DNA of 64,000 nucleotides from the IMG/VR virus record IMGVR_UViG_3300010389_000007, positions 20,835-84,834 of that record. One strand, given 5' to 3'. The notes beneath the pieces are model-generated. The model was given only the letters and a program-made list of their open reading frames with translations. It ran no database searches and was not told the DNA's origin. This DNA is from a virus. Of this stretch, positions 20,475-56,512 are shown one piece after another (within the stretch, counting starts at the first letter, position 1; every line of letters starts with the position of its first letter). A program made the translations under genes and the position numbers.

Positions 20475-22706
20475 TTATCCTAACTGATCCAGGGCAATAA
20501 TTAGGGGTGTTACTGTATTTAGAAGACTCTGATCGAAGTCCCTACCACTGATTGTTCCTGTAAATTGGTTCACAGAAACACCATCACCAATTCTAAAGTT
20601 ACCTGCCTGATCTGTGCTGGTATAGACTACCAATCCACCATCTCTAAATACAACTTCATTATCTTGAATTGTTACTCCACCAAGAGCAGGTTTTGCTGTA
20701 AAGATGTTAGTTCCAGATCCAACATATTCAAATGAGTGTGATGAAGCAATTTGTAAACTTTGTCTGGTAAAATATGCAGTAGTCCCAGACCCAACTTCAA
20801 AATCAAGAACAGTTTTGAGAACAACTGTGCTAACACCAGCAATTGGTAATGATGCACTCTCAATAGAATAATAAATTGGTTGTAAAACAACAGTTCCAGA
20901 TGCTCCACCAGTTCCACCAACTGAAATGTTTGGTGGATTTTCTATTTCATACTGAGATCCAGTTGCAATAATTGTAAATCCAGTAACTGTTCCATCTAGT
21001 GAGACATCAGCAACTGCTTCTGCCCTAATACCAGATGGACCAGTTGGTGCATCAATAGTAACTGTTGGTGGATTGTTTAGATCATATCCAGATCCAGGAT
21101 TATCCACAATAATAGAATCTACTGTATAGTATAATTTTCCAAAGTACAGTGCCTGACCATCATAAGGTCTGTAAGAACCAATTCCAGAAATTGCAATTGT
21201 ATCAGTATCTTCTGCTGCAGTAGTGGAAACTTCCCCAGTCATTCTATAAATTGATCCAGAATCTGTACCACCAACACCAATTGAGACTAGACCTTCATTT
21301 CCAAATGATGAGTTTGAGTTTGTAATATCACACTGACCACCATTTCCTGTGTAAATTGCAATATCATCACAAATAGTAAATATAGAAACTAACTGTGCAT
21401 ATGCACCATTTGTGATGGTAACACCAATGCCACCCTGGTTATATTGGGTATAGGAGTCAACTGACATTGTGCCAGTAACACCAATGTCATCTTGATCTCC
21501 TGGTTCTGCATGGAAACCATCAACTTTCATTCCAATACTATCTGGAATAAAGTTAGTGCAGTTTCTAATATATGGACCCTGAGTGATTGGACCTACACCT
21601 GGGGAGAATGAAGGATCATTTTCAACTGAAGTTCCTAATCCAGAATTTCCTGGATAAGTTGTATTGAATCCTACTCCAAGAACTCCTAATCCTTGATCAA
21701 TAATTGCAGTTACAACACCAACACAAGAATAGATGGCAGATACTACATTGGCACATCCATCAACACTTTGATTTCCATATGCACCATCTGGTTGAATACT
21801 TAGGTCTCTTACTTGGAAATACTCATTTTGATAATTTCCATCCCAGACTACATTATTGATACATGATTTTGCAATGCCTGCTGCATAATACATTGCATCA
21901 ATTGTTTCAGTCTTAACTCCAACAATGTGTTGAAGTGCTCCTGCTTGTGTGTAATATGATTTTCCTGCTCCAACACACTTAGAGTTTCCACCTCTTGTTA
22001 TGTCATAACAGACTGCTTTGAATACTGATTTAATATCTTCTGCGCATTCTTTGGCAGTTCCAATGCCCATTGAGAATGCACCACCATTATAGTCAGTGCT
22101 AGTTAAATATCCTACTGTTTCTTTTGCAATAAAATCAAGATTCATCCTGATCATTCTTGCAGCATCAAAATATCTGAATGATGAAACTCCAACTAATGGT
22201 TGGAATGCAATAACTGATGCTCCATTGGACATTCCTGGTCCAACAAAACTTAAATCTGTAACATGAACACCATTGTTCACATGAAACAGATCTTCAGTTG
22301 TATTCTGTGGAGTTACCTGACAGTTTCTTAGTTCAGTTCCCTCAACAGATACATTTCTAGGAATAACTACTGGATTATTTTCTGCATAATAACCAGGATA
22401 GATCTTGATAGTATCACCAGGAAGTGCTATTGCTGCTGCAGCCTTAATGGTTGCTTTTGCATCTCCTTGGTTTAATCCTGTATTATCATCATCTCCATTA
22501 GTATTGACAAATATTGTTTTTCCTACTGATGATCCAGCACCAACTTCAATAACTCTTGTACCTACACCTACAGCACCTTGATCCTGTTTAAGAAAAAGTT
22601 TACCATCATACAAGTTGATGGCTAATTCTCCTGCCTGGAGTTGATCTATAGTGGGTTTCTTTGCAGGAACAGAAGACCTTCTTATCCTGATCTTAGGATC
22701 TGCCAT
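20475..22706 (-). CDS. Beta-helix type tail protein (743 aa)
   Basis: The N-terminus has QLQAGELAINLYDGKLF, a motif of phage tail-fibre proteins. Residues ~85-125 (IKAAAAIALPGDTIKIYPGY then SVEGTELRNCQ) resemble the start of a pectate-lyase-like right-handed beta-helix. The C-terminus (TSTDQAGNFRIGDGVSVNQF) matches that of 28161-32636. No lyase active-site residues could be assigned, so it may bind rather than cut polysaccharide. Late octamer AATAAATA lies 50 nt upstream. Confidence 0.75.
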   Translation of the reverse strand: MADPKIRIRRSSVPAKKPTIDQLQAGELAINLYDGKLFLKQDQGAVGVGTRVIEVGAGSSVGKTIFVNTNGDDDNTGLNQGDAKATIKAAAAIALPGDTIKIYPGYYAENNPVVIPRNVSVEGTELRNCQVTPQNTTEDLFHVNNGVHVTDLSFVGPGMSNGASVIAFQPLVGVSSFRYFDAARMIRMNLDFIAKETVGYLTSTDYNGGAFSMGIGTAKECAEDIKSVFKAVCYDITRGGNSKCVGAGKSYYTQAGALQHIVGVKTETIDAMYYAAGIAKSCINNVVWDGNYQNEYFQVRDLSIQPDGAYGNQSVDGCANVVSAIYSCVGVVTAIIDQGLGVLGVGFNTTYPGNSGLGTSVENDPSFSPGVGPITQGPYIRNCTNFIPDSIGMKVDGFHAEPGDQDDIGVTGTMSVDSYTQYNQGGIGVTITNGAYAQLVSIFTICDDIAIYTGNGGQCDITNSNSSFGNEGLVSIGVGGTDSGSIYRMTGEVSTTAAEDTDTIAISGIGSYRPYDGQALYFGKLYYTVDSIIVDNPGSGYDLNNPPTVTIDAPTGPSGIRAEAVADVSLDGTVTGFTIIATGSQYEIENPPNISVGGTGGASGTVVLQPIYYSIESASLPIAGVSTVVLKTVLDFEVGSGTTAYFTRQSLQIASSHSFEYVGSGTNIFTAKPALGGVTIQDNEVVFRDGGLVVYTSTDQAGNFRIGDGVSVNQFTGTISGRDFDQSLLNTVTPLIIALDQLG

Positions 22707-44199: not shown

Positions 44200-45452
44200 T
44201 TTCTTCCTCCATAAGAGTCTCTGATTAATTCTAGTCCAGTAAGTCCTTTATTGCCAAACTCATGTTTTAGTTTACTTATAATATATTTACCAGACTTTCT
44301 ATTATCTTTTTCCTCACTCTCCTTTGATATCTTCCCAAACTTGACCTCAACTACATCTCCTACTGTCAATGCTAAGTTTAAAGGTACTGTAATATTTAAC
44401 GCTTGACTGAACAATAAATTGTATCTTGTCACAGCCTGTGCCTGATACTCCATTCTCTTATCTGCTGCTTGGAGTTTCCCAGACTTATCCATCTGTCCAC
44501 TATCAAGCATACTAACCATCAATCTTGATGGACTATCTTCTAATCCTTCTGGTATTACTGGAGCATTATCACTATTACTAGAGTGATTCATTATCTGATA
44601 ACTATCCTTTAACTTGTATACATTTGAATAGAATTTTCTAGTGTTGGTATCAAAGAAATAGTTTACACTAGCATACATTCCAATTTTTAAATTGTCAATG
44701 ACACTAGAGTTCTTTCTGAAAACTGGTGGAGAAGTTATCTTAAAGTTTGCTTGTGAATCTGCAGGTCCTGAAAGTACTTCTCTGTAACTGTAAGTTGCTT
44801 TTGATTGTCTTCCTTCAGCAAATAAAGAATCTACACTTTTAAAATTATATCCATTTTGATTCTCAAAGAACATATATCCTGCAGTTCCAACCTCATTACC
44901 AGACTTTCCAATAGGTGGAATTCCTTTAGGACATAACCATCCCAATACTGTGAATGGTTTTCTAGCATTACCCATGAATGAGTATTTGTTAGATGTCTTT
45001 TCTATGTTGCTATCTTGATATCTAGTTGTCCCTAATTCTTTCTGTAGAATCTTGGTTACAGAATTATCTATTGTGTTATCATATCTTCTGAATACTCTAG
45101 TAGTTTCATTGGTAAAAAACTCTAGTGGAACTAAATCCAAAACAAATAATTCTCTAGTGGACTCTGTAGTTGAGTTTACAATGTTTCCAATGTAATAAGT
45201 ATTTCTATTCTCATCTGTAAGATTTATCTTTAACTTTGTAGCATCTTGTGATATAACCAGTCTGACTTTTTCTCCACCAGCAATCTTTGCCAAGAATCCA
45301 GAGGTGTTAGTTATGACAAGGGACACCAATGACATTGGTGAGGTTATGTTTTCACTATAAGATATTGAAACAACAGATTCTGTCAGGTCTTGAAACCCAT
45401 CTTTAGTTTCTATAAGAAACTCTTGAATTTTGTAATTGTAATATGATGCCAT
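44196..45452 (-). CDS. Baseplate hub protein, gp27/gpD-like (418 aa)
   Basis: The sequence has two beta-barrel-like parts (ITSPMSLVSLVITNTSGFLA and KYIISKLKHEFGNKGLTGLE) and lies directly upstream of gp5 in transcription order, as phage hub proteins of the gp27 or gpD type usually do. I see no catalytic motif. The assignment rests on position and general pattern. Confidence 0.65.
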   Translation of the reverse strand: MASYYNYKIQEFLIETKDGFQDLTESVVSISYSENITSPMSLVSLVITNTSGFLAKIAGGEKVRLVISQDATKLKINLTDENRNTYYIGNIVNSTTESTRELFVLDLVPLEFFTNETTRVFRRYDNTIDNSVTKILQKELGTTRYQDSNIEKTSNKYSFMGNARKPFTVLGWLCPKGIPPIGKSGNEVGTAGYMFFENQNGYNFKSVDSLFAEGRQSKATYSYREVLSGPADSQANFKITSPPVFRKNSSVIDNLKIGMYASVNYFFDTNTRKFYSNVYKLKDSYQIMNHSSNSDNAPVIPEGLEDSPSRLMVSMLDSGQMDKSGKLQAADKRMEYQAQAVTRYNLLFSQALNITVPLNLALTVGDVVEVKFGKISKESEEKDNRKSGKYIISKLKHEFGNKGLTGLELIRDSYGGRK

Positions 45453-47284
45453 TAACCTAGTACACTATAGTATAACATCTTTAACAATTTCTTATCTGCA
45501 TCATCTTGAATATTTATTGACATTGGTGATGAGGATTGGGATTGTGATGCCTGTGGTAGGGTAACTGGCATTGGAACTTCTATAACTTCTGGTGGCATTT
45601 CTGCCATTGCCATTTGATAAACCTTAGATTTATTTAAAATTGCATTTAGTATATCTGGAGAAACATTTTCTAAAGGATCCCCACCACTTTGTGTGTGTTG
45701 ATTGTCTACTGGCAAGACTGCTTCTTTTCCATGGAGTAAAGCAAAGTATCCACCCTTTGGTCCAGAAAGAATGTTTCCTCCATGAGATCCTTCTGACTCA
45801 TAAAATTCATTTAAAAGTGCTCTTACTCTCTTTGATCCATTGTATTCAGTTGGTCCAATAGGACCAGAACCATTCCACTGATGCCCAGGAACGTCAAAAG
45901 CACGTCCCTCATAGTGAGCAGATCCTGCAGTATGACCAGAACTAACATTCATTTCAGTAACTTCTATATTCTTGCTCTTCAAATATGCTGCTGCTCTTTG
46001 CATAGTATCTCTATCTTTAAAGGCAACATGGTCATGATAATTACCAACTGTTCCATGTGCTGGATCATATGCAGGACTTGATGGATCTCCAGTTAAGTAT
46101 TGTGAAAAGGATGCTTTCTGAGTAAACTCATAACCAGCACCATTAATTGGAGTAGATCCTGCACCTCTAGCCTCAACTCTTGCAGCCTCTAATTTTACAT
46201 CTTCTGGTGACATAAAGAGACCCTTGGTAAATTCTTTAGAGAACTCTTCAAACTTAACCAAAGCTGTACTGTAACTGTCTAAAGTTTTTGTGAATGTTAA
46301 ATTTCCCTTTGCCTCAGCTAATTTTTTCTCTTTCTCTGTTTGAGTTTTTAATCTATTCTTTTCAATTTCCTTATCACTTGCACCAATTAAATCTCTTGTT
46401 AGATTAGTCAGATCTAATGCAAATGATGCTATTGATGCAAGACCAGCTAATGGCAATCCAACACCAGTTGCAGCAGATGCAGCTGCAAATGCATCTAAAG
46501 ATGCTCCTGCTCCTGAGATAGCTGCTCCAGTAACATCACCCTCAGATGCTCTAATTGCAGCATCAGCAGCACCAACAACTGCACCAACTCCAGGAACAAT
46601 TGATGCACCAAACCTACCAAATGCTCTTGCTGCTCTACCCCCTTTAGTTGCAGTGCTTACTACATCACCAGTTTGTCTGGATCTTTTTAGTGCATCTTTT
46701 CCAAATCTATTCTTAAATGCTCTGTCTCCAAATCTCTGTCTATATCTGTTTTGTGCACTAGTGGATACTCTTCTTCCAGTGACATCAAATCCTCTTTGTG
46801 GTTTGGGACCTCTGCCAAAAAATCCTTGAATTGCACCACCAGCAAGACCAAGTAATCCTGGTGCCATTAATGCACCAGCAGCAACCATTCCTGGGGAAAG
46901 TGCTCCTAGCAAATCTCCCTCTAATAATTTTTCTAAAGAATTGAGTCCTGCAAGGGCAGCAATTTGAAACAAAGGATCACCACTCTTAGAGAAGAATGAT
47001 CCTTTAAATTTTGGAACCTTTAATTTTTCTTTTGTTGTCTTTTTAGTTTTCTTTTGATATGCCCTATCCTTCTCTTTCTGTATAGAATCTAATCTATTTT
47101 TGTATCTATTCAAGACAGACAGTTGTGTCTTTCTTTGATAGATACCCTTCTCAAAAGTCTTCCTTAATTTAGTAGAAGTTTTTCTTGCTTCAGTGGATAC
47201 CTTAACTAAGTTGTTGACCTTAGATACCCTAGCAACAATCTTGGGTTGTGGTTTTGGTGCTTCTAGTAGTTTTTGTGCGTCCAT
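45452..47284 (-). CDS. Tail protein with peptidase M15-like domain (610 aa)
   Basis: The N-terminal ~110 residues are basic and helical. The middle holds hydrophobic Gly/Ala-rich segments as in tape-measure-like proteins. Near residue 450 GHTAGSAHYEGRAFDV matches the S-x-H-x-x-G-x-A-x-D signature of D,D-/L,D-peptidase-type enzymes (M15 family). It may digest peptidoglycan during DNA entry. Late synthesis with the neighbouring baseplate genes is expected. Length and layout resemble virion-attached lysins rather than a simple tape measure. Confidence 0.7.
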   Translation of the reverse strand: MDAQKLLEAPKPQPKIVARVSKVNNLVKVSTEARKTSTKLRKTFEKGIYQRKTQLSVLNRYKNRLDSIQKEKDRAYQKKTKKTTKEKLKVPKFKGSFFSKSGDPLFQIAALAGLNSLEKLLEGDLLGALSPGMVAAGALMAPGLLGLAGGAIQGFFGRGPKPQRGFDVTGRRVSTSAQNRYRQRFGDRAFKNRFGKDALKRSRQTGDVVSTATKGGRAARAFGRFGASIVPGVGAVVGAADAAIRASEGDVTGAAISGAGASLDAFAAASAATGVGLPLAGLASIASFALDLTNLTRDLIGASDKEIEKNRLKTQTEKEKKLAEAKGNLTFTKTLDSYSTALVKFEEFSKEFTKGLFMSPEDVKLEAARVEARGAGSTPINGAGYEFTQKASFSQYLTGDPSSPAYDPAHGTVGNYHDHVAFKDRDTMQRAAAYLKSKNIEVTEMNVSSGHTAGSAHYEGRAFDVPGHQWNGSGPIGPTEYNGSKRVRALLNEFYESEGSHGGNILSGPKGGYFALLHGKEAVLPVDNQHTQSGGDPLENVSPDILNAILNKSKVYQMAMAEMPPEVIEVPMPVTLPQASQSQSSSPMSINIQDDADKKLLKMLYYSVLG

Positions 47285-47287
47285 TTA

Positions 47288-49306
47288 TCAACCTACATCT
47301 ACAATGTTCCATTGAGTTCTGTACAGTTGCCCAATTATATCATTTGAATTATTTGGATCCACAAAATCATCATTACTTCCACCATCAAGGTTCACAGAAC
47401 CAGGACTACCAGAACTTGTTGGAGTTGGAATCATGCTAACAAGAACTCCTCTTGATGGTGGTGCAGTAGAACTAACATCTACTCTCTTTTGCTTTGATGT
47501 ATATCCACCTCTCTCATTGCCACCTTGAATACTTTCAAATGCTTTTCTGCTTGCCTTTAAATCTTCCTCTGTTACTTTTGTGTTTGTTGTCCAAGCACCC
47601 CAACCTGAACTTCTAAGTATTGCCAATGCAGCTTGAGCATTTGTAACTGGATCAAACAAATCTTCATTGCTTGATAGATTGAATCTTTTTCTTCTTTCAG
47701 CACCAAGCATATATCCTGGTTCATCAAGCATGTTGATTTGCCATAACCCATAAGAGTTATCTGGATATCTTGGATTATGTTTCTTAGATCCTCCTCCAGA
47801 TTCATATTTTGCTATTGCTGCCAATCTTATTGCTTCTTCATCTGTAGCACCAACCTTCTTGAGTAATTCTATTCTTCCTTTCATATCAAAATATTCTCCC
47901 TCAACAGTTCCCCTGGTCTCCATGTTCATTTCTACTGGGTCACCACTAATCGGACCTCCAGTGGTTTGATCTGTAGTGCTACCAGTTCCTCCCCCACCAC
48001 CAGAAGAAGATCTTTTACCCATCATATGATCTATCATCTTTTCAAACTTTTGATTTAAATTTTGGAATCTCTTTAAATCATCTTGGGTAATTGCAGCATA
48101 TCCACCAGCAGCAAGTGCTTTCTCTTGTGCTTCTAGCTCATCTAACCTATCCTGACTATCACCTCCAGTTTCTTGGGATCCCATAAAGGCACTTCCCAAA
48201 GATAATGCACCTGCACCAAGAGTCATTAGTGCACCAAACTTACCAATTCCACCCATCCTAGGAGTTCTTCCCCTTGGTCCTCTCATGGGCATCCCACCTC
48301 TTCTACCAAAGGCAGCTCTACCAAACCCTTTAAGAAGTGATTTCAGAATTGTGCCAGCAATCATCATTCCAATTTGTGGAACAAAGGTAATACCAATTCC
48401 CATCAAAGATCCAATGACCTTTGTTAGATCTCCATTGATGATGCCATCCAGTAAATTAAATGCAGCAAGCCCTCTTATTGCACCTCCAACTCCAGAGAAA
48501 AATCCACCAACAAATGGTTTAATTATTTCTTTAAGACTTCTCTTATCATCACCAAGATTTTTCTTTGGAAGTCTTCTTTCTCTATTGGCAATCCTCTTTC
48601 TATAATCTTCAATCTCTTTCTTATTCTTTGCTTTTGTCTGAGCATAATCCTCTTGGATTACCTCAGTAATTTTATCTAAATTATTGTTGACAACTTCCAA
48701 GTCTAAAGTAAGTCTTCCTAAAGAAGATATTACTTTCTTACTTGGAGATGCTACAGTCTCACCCTCTTGCTCCTGTGTTATTGGAGCAGATATTTTATCT
48801 GCTACTTCTTTTGGAATAGGTCTCTTGGGAATAATCCCAGTCATCCTATTGACCTTTACTGATATCTTCTTTCCAGGTCTAAGAGTAGAAGGTGGAGATA
48901 TAAATGACTGTGCTTTTTCTCTTTGTGCTTTTCTCTGTTCTGTTATTTCTCTTACTCTAGATTCTATAGCAGCTTGTTCTATTTTCCTATTTGTCTCTTC
49001 CCTGAATGGACCTTCTAGGTATTCTTCTACCAACCATTCTTGATATGCTTGTAGATTAGAGTAACCTCCATCCTTTCCACGCTGATCCACCTGAGGATAT
49101 CCTCTAGGATCTTTCTTCATGTTTGCAATTAATCTATCAGCATCTGCTGATGTTATGCGAACAAAAGATGAATACTGTATGCCAGCACTATCTGTACCAC
49201 CAGTTAATTTAGCCTTGAGTCTGCTCCAAAGAGCGTCAGAAACCTTACCTTTATACCAAGGTTGTTGTGAGTCTAGTGTTCCCTTTGGTGGTTCAGTACG
49301 ATTCAT
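47288..49306 (-). CDS. Tail protein with lysozyme-like SLT domain (672 aa)
   Basis: Residues ~490-585 contain KYESGG followed by YGLWQINMLDEP, the glutamate and substrate-site pattern of soluble lytic transglycosylases. The N-terminal half is charged and helical, and residues ~280-380 are glycine-rich and hydrophobic. The ATG is shared with the stop of the frameshift product (ATGA). It probably acts together with the M15-like protein encoded next to it. Confidence 0.75.
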   Translation of the reverse strand: MNRTEPPKGTLDSQQPWYKGKVSDALWSRLKAKLTGGTDSAGIQYSSFVRITSADADRLIANMKKDPRGYPQVDQRGKDGGYSNLQAYQEWLVEEYLEGPFREETNRKIEQAAIESRVREITEQRKAQREKAQSFISPPSTLRPGKKISVKVNRMTGIIPKRPIPKEVADKISAPITQEQEGETVASPSKKVISSLGRLTLDLEVVNNNLDKITEVIQEDYAQTKAKNKKEIEDYRKRIANRERRLPKKNLGDDKRSLKEIIKPFVGGFFSGVGGAIRGLAAFNLLDGIINGDLTKVIGSLMGIGITFVPQIGMMIAGTILKSLLKGFGRAAFGRRGGMPMRGPRGRTPRMGGIGKFGALMTLGAGALSLGSAFMGSQETGGDSQDRLDELEAQEKALAAGGYAAITQDDLKRFQNLNQKFEKMIDHMMGKRSSSGGGGGTGSTTDQTTGGPISGDPVEMNMETRGTVEGEYFDMKGRIELLKKVGATDEEAIRLAAIAKYESGGGSKKHNPRYPDNSYGLWQINMLDEPGYMLGAERRKRFNLSSNEDLFDPVTNAQAALAILRSSGWGAWTTNTKVTEEDLKASRKAFESIQGGNERGGYTSKQKRVDVSSTAPPSRGVLVSMIPTPTSSGSPGSVNLDGGSNDDFVDPNNSNDIIGQLYRTQWNIVDVG

Positions 49307-49488
49307 CTATTTGCCTTGGCTGCTTTTTCTTCCTCTTCTTTAATATAGTTTTCTAATAAAGTGAGATAGATTTCTCTTTCCCAAGGAATCATATTTTCAA
49401 TCTCTGTCAATGAATATTTATGGTGCTGCATCAAGGCAAAGTTTATTCTGTAGTATGCCTCAAGGTCTTCATGACCAAGGACTAACCG
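49303..49488 (-). CDS. -1 frameshift extension of gp26 (61 aa)
   Basis: A frame without a usable start codon overlaps the end of gp26 and runs as RLVLGHEDLEAYYRINFALM, then HHKYSLTEIENMIPWER, to a Lys/Glu-rich end. It is entered if ribosomes slip by -1 on T-TTT-TTC (49494-49488) just before the gp26 stop, giving a ~302-residue fusion. Its stop overlaps the next ATG. The layout is that of tail assembly chaperone pairs such as lambda gpG/gpGT. Frameshifting is inferred from sequence. Confidence 0.72.
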   Translation of the reverse strand, partial: RLVLGHEDLEAYYRINFALMQHHKYSLTEIENMIPWEREIYLTLLENYIKEEEEKAAKANR

Positions 49489-50210
49489 AAAAAACTTGAG
49501 AGACCCTCCAGAACAATTTCATTATCCTTTCCAGTTACTGGATTGGTTACTGTCATAGTGTGAGTTAATTTTGGCATGGTGTTGAAGAAGTTTTCAACCT
49601 GCTTAAATTGTGATGAGTCAAAAGTTTGTAACCACTCAACAAGTTCTTTCTTTGTAACATCACTAGCAGACCATGATTCATCTTTGGTGTATACCATGTC
49701 AACACATGATGCCACAATGTCAAAGGATCTATCAATAGTTTCTCTACTATCATTAGTTTCAAAATTGAAGTTATTGTCAATGAACTCCTGCAGAGAAGGA
49801 TACTTCATCTTCAGGACGATCTGATCATCAACTTTAATCTCTGAGGTATGTTCCTCAGGGAACTTAACCTCAATCTCTCTAATATCTACTGTACAATCTA
49901 CCTGAGTTACTCCATCATCAGGACATGTAACTAAAAGTTCTACTGCCTCACCAACTGACTTTGCTCTAATGTTGAGAAACAGATATTCAATATCAAAACT
50001 TGGAAGAGTATCAATCTTAACTCCTCTTGTCAAGATACAATCTTTTAGGACTGTCTTGACTGCTCTAGTGATCTCAGATGACTCACCACTTTCCATGGCA
50101 AGGATCAATACCTTTTCTTCCTTGACCAAGAAAGGTCTATATGTAATTTTCTTTTTGTTTGAAGGTAGAATCAACTCATAAGTTGGAGTTGCAATCTTAG
50201 GTAAAGGCAT
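49482..50210 (-). CDS. gp26: gp26-like baseplate hub/assembly protein (242 aa)
   Basis: MPLPKIATPTYELILPSNKK with YRPFLVKEEKVLILAMESGE matches the T4 gp26 family of cyanophages, and the length fits. The C-terminus EGLSSFFG is encoded by AGT-TTT-TTC-GGT-TAG, whose T-run is a slippery site. The late promoter GATAAATA lies 28 nt upstream. In T4 gp26 takes part in baseplate hub assembly; the frameshift extension points to a chaperone role. Confidence 0.83.
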   Translation of the reverse strand: MPLPKIATPTYELILPSNKKKITYRPFLVKEEKVLILAMESGESSEITRAVKTVLKDCILTRGVKIDTLPSFDIEYLFLNIRAKSVGEAVELLVTCPDDGVTQVDCTVDIREIEVKFPEEHTSEIKVDDQIVLKMKYPSLQEFIDNNFNFETNDSRETIDRSFDIVASCVDMVYTKDESWSASDVTKKELVEWLQTFDSSQFKQVENFFNTMPKLTHTMTVTNPVTGKDNEIVLEGLSSFFG

Positions 50211-50236: not shown

Positions 50237-51094
50237 TTATTTATCCAGCAATTCACGTTGTCTTTGGTATGTACTTAGGAGATCATTAGATGAATCACTC
50301 TTAAATCTACCTGGAACATTTTCTGCTCCACCAAAGGATTGTTCAAATCCTTGTGTATATGCTCTAGCATATTCTTCTGGACTTAGGAGACTTCCTCTTA
50401 TTGGATTATCTGAATTAGTAGAAGAAAGTGGTGTTTCTACAGGATCTACTCCTGGACCAGATACTCTTCCACCACCTGTTGGGTTGTTATTAAACCTATC
50501 AGATTTATAATTATAAACATCATACTGAAATGTAACTGTTGTCTTTAGAATAGATGTCCCTTCATAAGAAACAGGAATGGATATTAAGTTAGATGGCCAA
50601 GCATTTCTTAGAGTATAAGTAACAGATTTTTTTGGTGCTGTACCAGCCTGTGTGGTCAACCTCTTGCCTGGAGAATGGAATTCTCTTTCAAATTTTGTTA
50701 TTAAAACTTCCTTTCTATATTGTGTTGGATATTTGTGTTCTACATAAGAATCTCCAATTTCTCCACGATTCTCAGAAATATAATCTATCCAAGACTGAAA
50801 ATAATTTATAACTTTATAATCTTTATCAACATAAAAACTTACATCTACTGGAGGATAAGATCTTCTTGTTGGGTAATACTCTGTTCTGCCTTGTCTATCA
50901 CCATATACAGTTCCTAATTCATATGATGTTCCTGGGAGAACTGCTTCATATGCCATAAAGTTGACATCTGTATTGGTAGATCCACCACCAGACCATCCTA
51001 TCCAAACATCAAATGTGTTTGTAAGTGCAGGTTTGAATTTTTTTACCAGACTATCAGTTGTGTAATATAGGTTTGTGTATGGATTAACTGACAT
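50237..51094 (-). CDS. gp54: Tail-tube-like protein, gp54/gp19 family (285 aa)
   Basis: The sequence carries the tube-protein pattern VWIGWSGGG, YEAVLPGTSYELGTVYGDRQ, YYPTRRSYPPVDVSFYVDKD, YRKEVLITKFER and VTYTLRNAWPSNLISIPVSY. T4 gp54 and gp48 resemble the tail tube protein gp19, and the context between gp26 and gp48 suggests the tube initiator gp54. The C-terminal ~60 residues are flexible. The precise gp number is inference. Confidence 0.72.
   Translation of the reverse strand: MSVNPYTNLYYTTDSLVKKFKPALTNTFDVWIGWSGGGSTNTDVNFMAYEAVLPGTSYELGTVYGDRQGRTEYYPTRRSYPPVDVSFYVDKDYKVINYFQSWIDYISENRGEIGDSYVEHKYPTQYRKEVLITKFEREFHSPGKRLTTQAGTAPKKSVTYTLRNAWPSNLISIPVSYEGTSILKTTVTFQYDVYNYKSDRFNNNPTGGGRVSGPGVDPVETPLSSTNSDNPIRGSLLSPEEYARAYTQGFEQSFGGAENVPGRFKSDSSNDLLSTYQRQRELLDK
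50238..50245 (-). promoter_or_regulatory. T4-like late promoter GATAAATA
   Basis: On the minus strand, 28 nt upstream of the gp26 start, inside the 3' end of the gp54-like gene. Confidence 0.62.
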
Positions 51095-51124: not shown

Positions 51125-51559
51125 ATGAGCTATAAAGGAAGATTTAAACCATCCTTCCCAGAAAAATATATTGGAGACCCAAACAATGTAATCTACAGGT
51201 CTCTGTGGGAATTGAAGTTCATGAATTACTGTGACAGAAATGAGAATATATTGAAGTGGTCTAGTGAAGAGATATGGATTCCATACCTATCACCACTAGA
51301 TAATAGAATACACAAATACTTTCCAGACTTTTACATTAAGTATGTTGATAAAAACAAAGTCACCAAAGAAAGTTTAATTGAAGTGAAACCAAAGAGACAA
51401 GTTAATGGTCCCAAAACTGGTAAGAGAGTGACCAAGAAACAACTTGTTGAAGTTAGAGAGTATGCAAAGAATCAAGCAAAGTGGAAAGCAGCAAAGGAAT
51501 TCTGTGCTGATAGAAGATGGGATTTTCAAATATTGACGGAGGATAACCTTGGCGTATAA
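51125..51559 (+). CDS. gp4: gp4-like head completion protein (144 aa)
   Basis: The sequence YIGDPNNVIYRSLWELKFMN, then EEIWIPYLSPLDNRIHKYFP and DFYIKY is the T4 gp4 (head completion) family signature, and the length matches. T4 gp4 acts at the end of packaging on filled heads before tail attachment. It opens the plus-strand block and overlaps the next gene by 11 nt. Confidence 0.85.
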   Translation: MSYKGRFKPSFPEKYIGDPNNVIYRSLWELKFMNYCDRNENILKWSSEEIWIPYLSPLDNRIHKYFPDFYIKYVDKNKVTKESLIEVKPKRQVNGPKTGKRVTKKQLVEVREYAKNQAKWKAAKEFCADRRWDFQILTEDNLGV

Positions 51560-55918: not shown

Positions 55919-56512
55919 TTAACCTCCTACAACAGTACTCTTTAAAATTTTTCTGTACTTGAATATATCAATATTTAGAAATGGGGAATATTTCTTGAGT
56001 TTCATAGAGACAGATTCCCAAATAGGATCCAAAAGTTTCTTGTCAAAATTACTCCCGAACAGGAATATTCTATCATAGATCACTAGTGTTTCCATAGAAA
56101 TTTTCCCGCTCAGGAACTTTTTTAAAATGATTGGGTGACCTTTAGTACAATCAAATACATCATCCACTTTGTATTCTGAGAATAATTCCTCAGACTCTTG
56201 TGTAAAAATGTACTGTAGACTTTGCTGTCTCTTGTTCCACTCTTGATAGTAAGTATCCCCTGACCTAATTACACTACCAATCCATAAACTGTTTGGATCA
56301 TCTGCAGCTACAAAATTAGCGATGAAGAAGTTTTTAATTTCCTCATCGCTCTTTTGTCTACTAAGTTTTTCAAACCAGTACTTGTCCTTTCTTTTATTGA
56401 AGGTTGCTACTGATGCCCTAGACTTACCTGCATACTTATGATAATCATACTTCTCTTTACTAAAGTGATTCTTCAGTGCAAGGTATTGCTTGTAAGCATC
56501 AAAGGGTGTCAT
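55919..56512 (-). CDS. gp59: gp59-like helicase loader (197 aa)
   Basis: MTPFDAYKQYLALKNHFSKE, then KRKDKYWFEKLSRQKSDEEI is the T4 gp59 family signature. T4 gp59 loads the gp41 helicase on gp32-coated forks. The gene is adjacent to gp32 and gp33, and its start overlaps the gp33 stop by 4 nt. Confidence 0.82.
   Translation of the reverse strand: MTPFDAYKQYLALKNHFSKEKYDYHKYAGKSRASVATFNKRKDKYWFEKLSRQKSDEEIKNFFIANFVAADDPNSLWIGSVIRSGDTYYQEWNKRQQSLQYIFTQESEELFSEYKVDDVFDCTKGHPIILKKFLSGKISMETLVIYDRIFLFGSNFDKKLLDPIWESVSMKLKKYSPFLNIDIFKYRKILKSTVVGG

Follow-up and report, generated by a model that had tools for sequence, protein, structure and literature searches.

A probable −1 frameshift at the end of gp26 may give two tail-assembly chaperones from one phage gene

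The gp26 locus and its two reading frames

The stretch of DNA analyzed here, which comes from a virus of cyanobacteria and is hereafter called the window (64,000 nucleotides, positions 20,835 to 84,834 of IMG/VR record IMGVR_UViG_3300010389_000007), carries on its minus strand a gp26 gene located between a tail-tube-like gene and a large downstream gene. The features of the locus are the following:

50237..51094, minus strand: upstream tail-tube-like gene (phrog_45 tail tube, PF23849)
49482..50210, minus strand: gp26 ORF, 0-frame product of 242 aa (PF12322 / phrog_150)
49504..49509, minus strand: internal GGAGGG resembling a Shine-Dalgarno sequence, 9 nt before the heptamer (anti-Shine-Dalgarno pairing compared with a synonymous null)
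49488..49494, minus strand: slippery heptamer T_TTT_TTC (read from the sequence; conserved in relatives)
49482..49484, minus strand: gp26 stop codon TAG (read from the sequence)
49452..49483, minus strand: possible stimulatory hairpin AGU-CCUU-GGUC-AUGAA-GACC-(UU)-GAGG-(CAU)-ACU, 4 nt after the heptamer (centroid fold)
49303..49488, minus strand: −1 frame extension of 61 residues plus a TGA stop, with a gp51 domain (phrog_634; profile match)
47288..49306, minus strand: downstream gene of 672 aa with a hydrophobic segment and an SLT lysozyme-like domain, whose ATG overlaps the −1 stop (ORF and profile matches)

Profile searches assigned the gp26 product to phrog_150 (8.2e-78) and to PF12322, T4_baseplate (8.4e-71), the latter match scoring 238.6 bits against a cut-off of 24.5 and covering residues 9-241. 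The 3' end of the gene reads GAG GGT CTC TCA AGT TTT TTC GGT TAG, and a single sense codon (GGT) thus separates the TTC of the heptamer from the stop codon. The −1 frame has 61 codons, starting at CGG (49488) and closing with a TGA (49303-49305), which shares bases with the start codon of the downstream gene (ATG at 49306; ATGA). Slippage would yield a fusion of 302 residues (241 + 61), with EGLSSFFRLVLGHEDLEAYYR as the predicted junction peptide.

An earlier sequence-only reading of the window had proposed a T-TTT-TTC site near the gp26 stop, a −1 stop overlapping the next ATG and a 302-residue fusion, and all three were confirmed (site at 49488-49494, overlap at 49303-49306). The same reading held that the 61-residue −1 frame had no start codon of its own. 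The length was correct, and no start codon is present in the first 18 tail residues nor upstream of the slip; however, a TTG and an ATG are found at residues 19 and 20, respectively. Because the −1 frame lacks an early or upstream start, initiation inside the tail would cost a conserved part of the domain.

The ~54 kb of ORFs of the window contain no more than four in-frame TTTTTTN heptamers. When all 78 in-frame X XXY YYZ sites were considered, the gp26 site was the only one located <30 nt from a stop and followed by a long −1 extension that an ordinary neighbor gene does not explain. A second heptamer, TTTAAAG, lies 25 nt before the stop of the ORF at 55919-56512 (minus strand) and is followed by a 119-codon −1 frame; this candidate was rejected, as the next gene has its own ATG and a GGAGG.

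Conservation of the slippery site and its stimulators

Relatives were gathered from IMG/VR and from phage records, giving 153 unique loci. An in-frame T TTT TTN closes gp26 in 148 of them, which are all the unique cyanophage-type relatives (148/148); the five loci without it belong to four Ackermannviridae-type phages and to T2. The heptamer is TTTTTTC in 145 cases, with TTTTTTT, TTTTTTG and TTTTTTA found once each, and its carriers include P-SSM2, phiM12, phiAS5, XZ1, Marzo, ZPAH1 and RHph_I9. Absence of the slippery site or interruption of the −1 frame in related phages had been set beforehand as a refutation of the frameshift; the site was present in 148/148, and the −1 frame is open in related phages.

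In the Ackermannviridae-type gp26 homologues (L185-L202, L094-L096, L010), a gp51-like tail is found in the −1 frame without a canonical heptamer. Close to the point where the −1 frame of these loci opens, NTT TTC A.. (U_UUC A) is conserved. An ATG, GTG or TTG start is lacking there in most Kuttervirus-type loci, and TAATG is found in YC, K471 and L199-L201. A non-canonical −1 shift and an unusual restart are both possible.

Codon choice at the site was analyzed in 24 representatives of the 148 relatives, <70% identical to each other. The residue encoded just before the site varies (S, D, N, A, G or R), and its codon (AGT, TCT, GAT, AAT, GCT or CGT) always ends in T; the first Phe codon of the site is TTT in all 24. 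Under a null of synonymous codons drawn from the codon usage of the family itself, log10 p = −10.6. Because the 24 lineages were treated as independent, this value should be taken as indicative and not as an exact probability.

Two kinds of stimulatory element were considered. Upstream, the relatives harbor GGAGGG or a GAAGGG-type sequence at roughly −15 to −10 relative to the heptamer. The mean energy of pairing between this element and the 16S tail was −7.5 kcal/mol, compared with −5.6 in synonymous recodings, and 0/300 null sets were as strong. Downstream, the relatives show excess structure in sequence that begins 6 nt past the heptamer (mean z −1.53, versus ~−0.3 in most other sequence windows; one upstream window reached −0.8). 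An 11-bp stem with a 5-nt spacer and compensatory changes is found in ~43/134 sequences (about a third), and its covariation score, obtained from 84 sequences that lie outside the clade of the window and were not selected for pairing, was higher than that of 500/500 shuffles and of all slid versions. The 5-bp stem II scored no better than shuffles, and RNAalifold gave no consensus structure over the whole set or over the clade of the window because hairpin shapes differ between subgroups. The hairpin of the window itself is not significant (z −0.9 to −1.4). In many relatives the downstream stem-loop stands out clearly; that of the window is weak, and no convincing structure is found there.

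Such an arrangement is reminiscent of E. coli dnaX, with which it shares an upstream internal Shine-Dalgarno sequence, a homopolymeric heptamer and, in many relatives, a downstream stem-loop; the spacing of the Shine-Dalgarno sequence is also similar. A difference is that the shift gives a shorter product in dnaX and a longer one in gp26. Stimulation by an internal Shine-Dalgarno sequence is established for dnaX (PMC5009743).

Runs of T can cause transcriptional slippage, and one might thus argue that RNA polymerase, and not the ribosome, slips on the six T's of the site to give an identical fusion. This explanation seems, however, very improbable: the run has six T's only, while bacterial cases have been described for runs of about nine (PMC5009743), and it is kept in a single codon phase, in a form appropriate for tandem slippage and next to a ribosomal stimulator.

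The −1 tail and the duplicated genes of T4-type phages

The −1 tail matches phrog_634 (gp51, "baseplate hub assembly catalyst"; 7.3e-29, residues 2-60), and 579 phage records match the tail. No match for either gp26 or the −1 tail was found by sequence search of the PDB. The suspicion that standard annotation splits or loses the tail was well founded, as P-SSM2 has a separate gp51 and none is annotated in DSL-LC03 and ACG-2014h. A gp51 tail is present in the −1 frame of DSL-LC03, ACG-2014h and ZPAH1 (L002, L003, L097) and remains unannotated in the three phages.

Both gp26 and gp51 of T4 are counted among the hub assembly chaperones; assembly requires gp51, yet the finished particle does not contain it (PMC3004832). 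The window gene is homologous to both. In T2, gp26 (208 aa) and gp51 (249 aa) are two divergent genes, and both products match PF12322 along the entire profile (8.8e-64 and 4.3e-55, respectively), an observation that identifies them as paralogues. The T4-type gp51 is a continuous ORF made of PF12322 and the same C-terminal tail found in cyanophages, without gaps at the junction (FFRLVLGHEDLEAYYRIN / VFKLLVNPDEIFTFYQIN). The heptamer was absent from the seven T-even-type gp26 genes examined. A tree of 29 proteins, whose rooting was not established, placed T-even gp26 and gp51 together across a 100/99 branch from every frameshift-type protein, including those of the Straboviridae phiAS5, ZPAH1 and XZ1. 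Most simply, these comparisons can be read as a duplication of the gene on the T-even lineage, after which the tail stayed in frame in one copy and was lost from the other. Gene duplication would thus seem to have replaced the frameshift in T-even phages: T4-type phages use two divergent genes without frameshifting, while the window would use one gene for both products.

Evidence of selection in the −1 frame is found at the junction. A single codon normally separates the heptamer from the gp26 stop; its first base is G in nearly all cases, and its second base varies. As a consequence, this codon mostly encodes G, A, V, E or S in the 0 frame, and the −1 codon, CGN, encodes Arg in 140/148 relatives; the base that varies freely is synonymous in the −1 frame. 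None of the 148 relatives has a −1-frame start codon before the slip, so that ribosomes can reach the Arg codon in the −1 frame only by slipping. Conservation of Arg next to a variable 0-frame residue is as expected if the −1 frame were translated across the junction. An alternative cause for conservation of the G is a context effect of this base on slippage. In the natural fusions represented by T4-type gp51, the junction position is occupied by Lys in 6/7 and by Glu in phiAS4.

Along the tail, the median dN/dS (NG86) in relatives is 0.12 and third positions hold 54% of differences: the tail is under purifying selection. This observation bears on the possibility that the frame break is a sequencing error in the contig or the scar of a decayed gene, which could be invoked because the break falls between two domains that form one protein in T4. 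Besides this selection on the tail, the break is found at the identical base in 148 unique contigs and isolates, so that error and decay are already refuted by conservation.

A more serious objection is that gp51 might be a small gene in its own right, expressed through stop-start coupling or through reinitiation past the gp26 stop, the heptamer being incidental. Many relatives have a separate gp51 in their GenBank annotation, and in many the gp26 stop is followed by TAATG or TAAGTATG; furthermore, the −1 frame of 93/148 relatives has an ATG no more than six codons past the slip, where a separate gp51 could also start. We nevertheless consider this explanation unlikely. The remaining 55/148 relatives have no early ATG but keep the heptamer, and the tail of the window offers no start for 18 residues. 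Reinitiating ribosomes would never read the conserved Arg codon, which precedes the stop. Where a downstream ATG exists, GGAGGG lies ~24 nt from the nearest one, beyond ordinary Shine-Dalgarno reach, and is therefore not the initiation site of gp51. Residue 4 of the tail alternates between M, L and I, a pattern typical of a hydrophobic position and not of a start codon. Lastly, T4 gp51 is a natural fusion. Reinitiation may supply extra free gp51 in relatives with an early ATG; however, it explains neither the window nor the conserved codon before the stop.

The probable programmed −1 frameshift from gp26 into the downstream frame, as first proposed from the DNA of the window, is supported by the observed conservation of the site, by the evolution of the −1 frame and by the gp51 domain of the tail. 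Programmed frameshifting at this site is very likely in our opinion. Slippage itself and the slippage ratio are nonetheless inferred from sequence comparisons, without peptide, reporter or ribosome-profiling data.

A proposed lambda-like pair of tail chaperones

The order of genes (tube-like gene, gp26, −1 tail, large tape-measure-like gene) fits that of lambda G/GT, with the caveat that the tape measure is inferred. The 672-aa gene at 47288-49306 probably encodes a tape-measure-type protein; a phiM12 gene at a comparable location carries an annotation of similarity to tape measure proteins.

Two observations on neighboring genes can be added. The genes at 45452-47284 and 47288-49306 (both on the minus strand) each match a separate part of a single 1036-aa family (phrog_11440), which suggests one ancestral large gene, split in the window. 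On the plus strand, the head closure protein gp4 (51125-51559) matches a TnsA-like endonuclease N-terminal domain (PF08722, 7e-24).

In lambda, as in the window, the slippery site ends the first ORF, a tail domain follows in the −1 frame, and the pair lies between tube-type and large tape-measure-type genes. Both gpG and gpGT are absent from virions, like T4 gp51. Differences are, however, found: sequence homology is not detectable, gp26 is far longer than gpG, and the heptamer, which is GGGAAAG in lambda, is TTTTTTC in the window and has a Shine-Dalgarno-like stimulator. The lambda gpG/gpGT tail assembly chaperones are produced by −1 frameshifting (PMC5009743, citing Xu et al. 2004).

The claim of a lambda gpG/gpGT-type layout is upheld by the gene order and by existing annotation, while homology to gpG was not demonstrated. 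In the GenBank record of Acinetobacter phage Apostate (NC_049491), gp26, gp51 and gp28 are noted as tape measure protein assembly chaperones, and such a role has thus been proposed already by annotators. A Pfam search gave no match to a tail-chaperone family, and sequence homology to known tail assembly chaperone families was not found. The AlphaFold model of gp26, built from 54 sequences, had a pLDDT of 87 (an earlier input of 15 sequences gave 1/5 good models). HK97 gp13 (2ob9_B) was the third PDB match to this model (62 columns, rmsd 2.8, probability 0.82), but the E value of 0.92 is not significant. The predicted likeness in fold between gp26 and the HK97 tail assembly chaperone gp13 is suggestive only.

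Altogether, we propose that in this virus and in related T4-like phages one gene gives rise to two tail-assembly chaperones, a pair akin to lambda G/GT, by −1 frameshifting, and we estimate the probability of this reading at roughly 0.85. Most ribosomes would end at the gp26 stop and release the 242-aa product, while a fraction would slip by −1 on U_UUU_UUC and synthesize the 302-residue gp26-gp51 fusion. Slipping ribosomes would be held by the internal GGAGGG and, in many relatives, also by the downstream stem-loop. By analogy with lambda gpG/gpGT, the part shared by both products would coat the tape measure protein encoded by the next gene, and the smaller share of copies that end in the gp51 tail would use it to bring in tube or hub subunits. 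In T4, the two products would correspond to gp26 and gp51, each encoded by its own copy of a duplicated gene. The lambda-like role is likely; it relies on analogy, and chaperone function, including tape measure binding, is inferred.

We found no published description of gp26/gp51 frameshifting in the open-access literature searched, and reports in subscription journals cannot be excluded. Searches by term in the PRFect paper and in the 2016 recoding review gave no such description either.

If the proposal is correct, the annotations of many cyanophage genomes would be corrected, and one rule would cover both the T4 superfamily and lambda-type tails. The proposal would also make gp51 the long partner of gp26, produced by frameshifting in most relatives and by duplication in T-even phages, and thereby give gp51 a testable role as tape measure chaperone.
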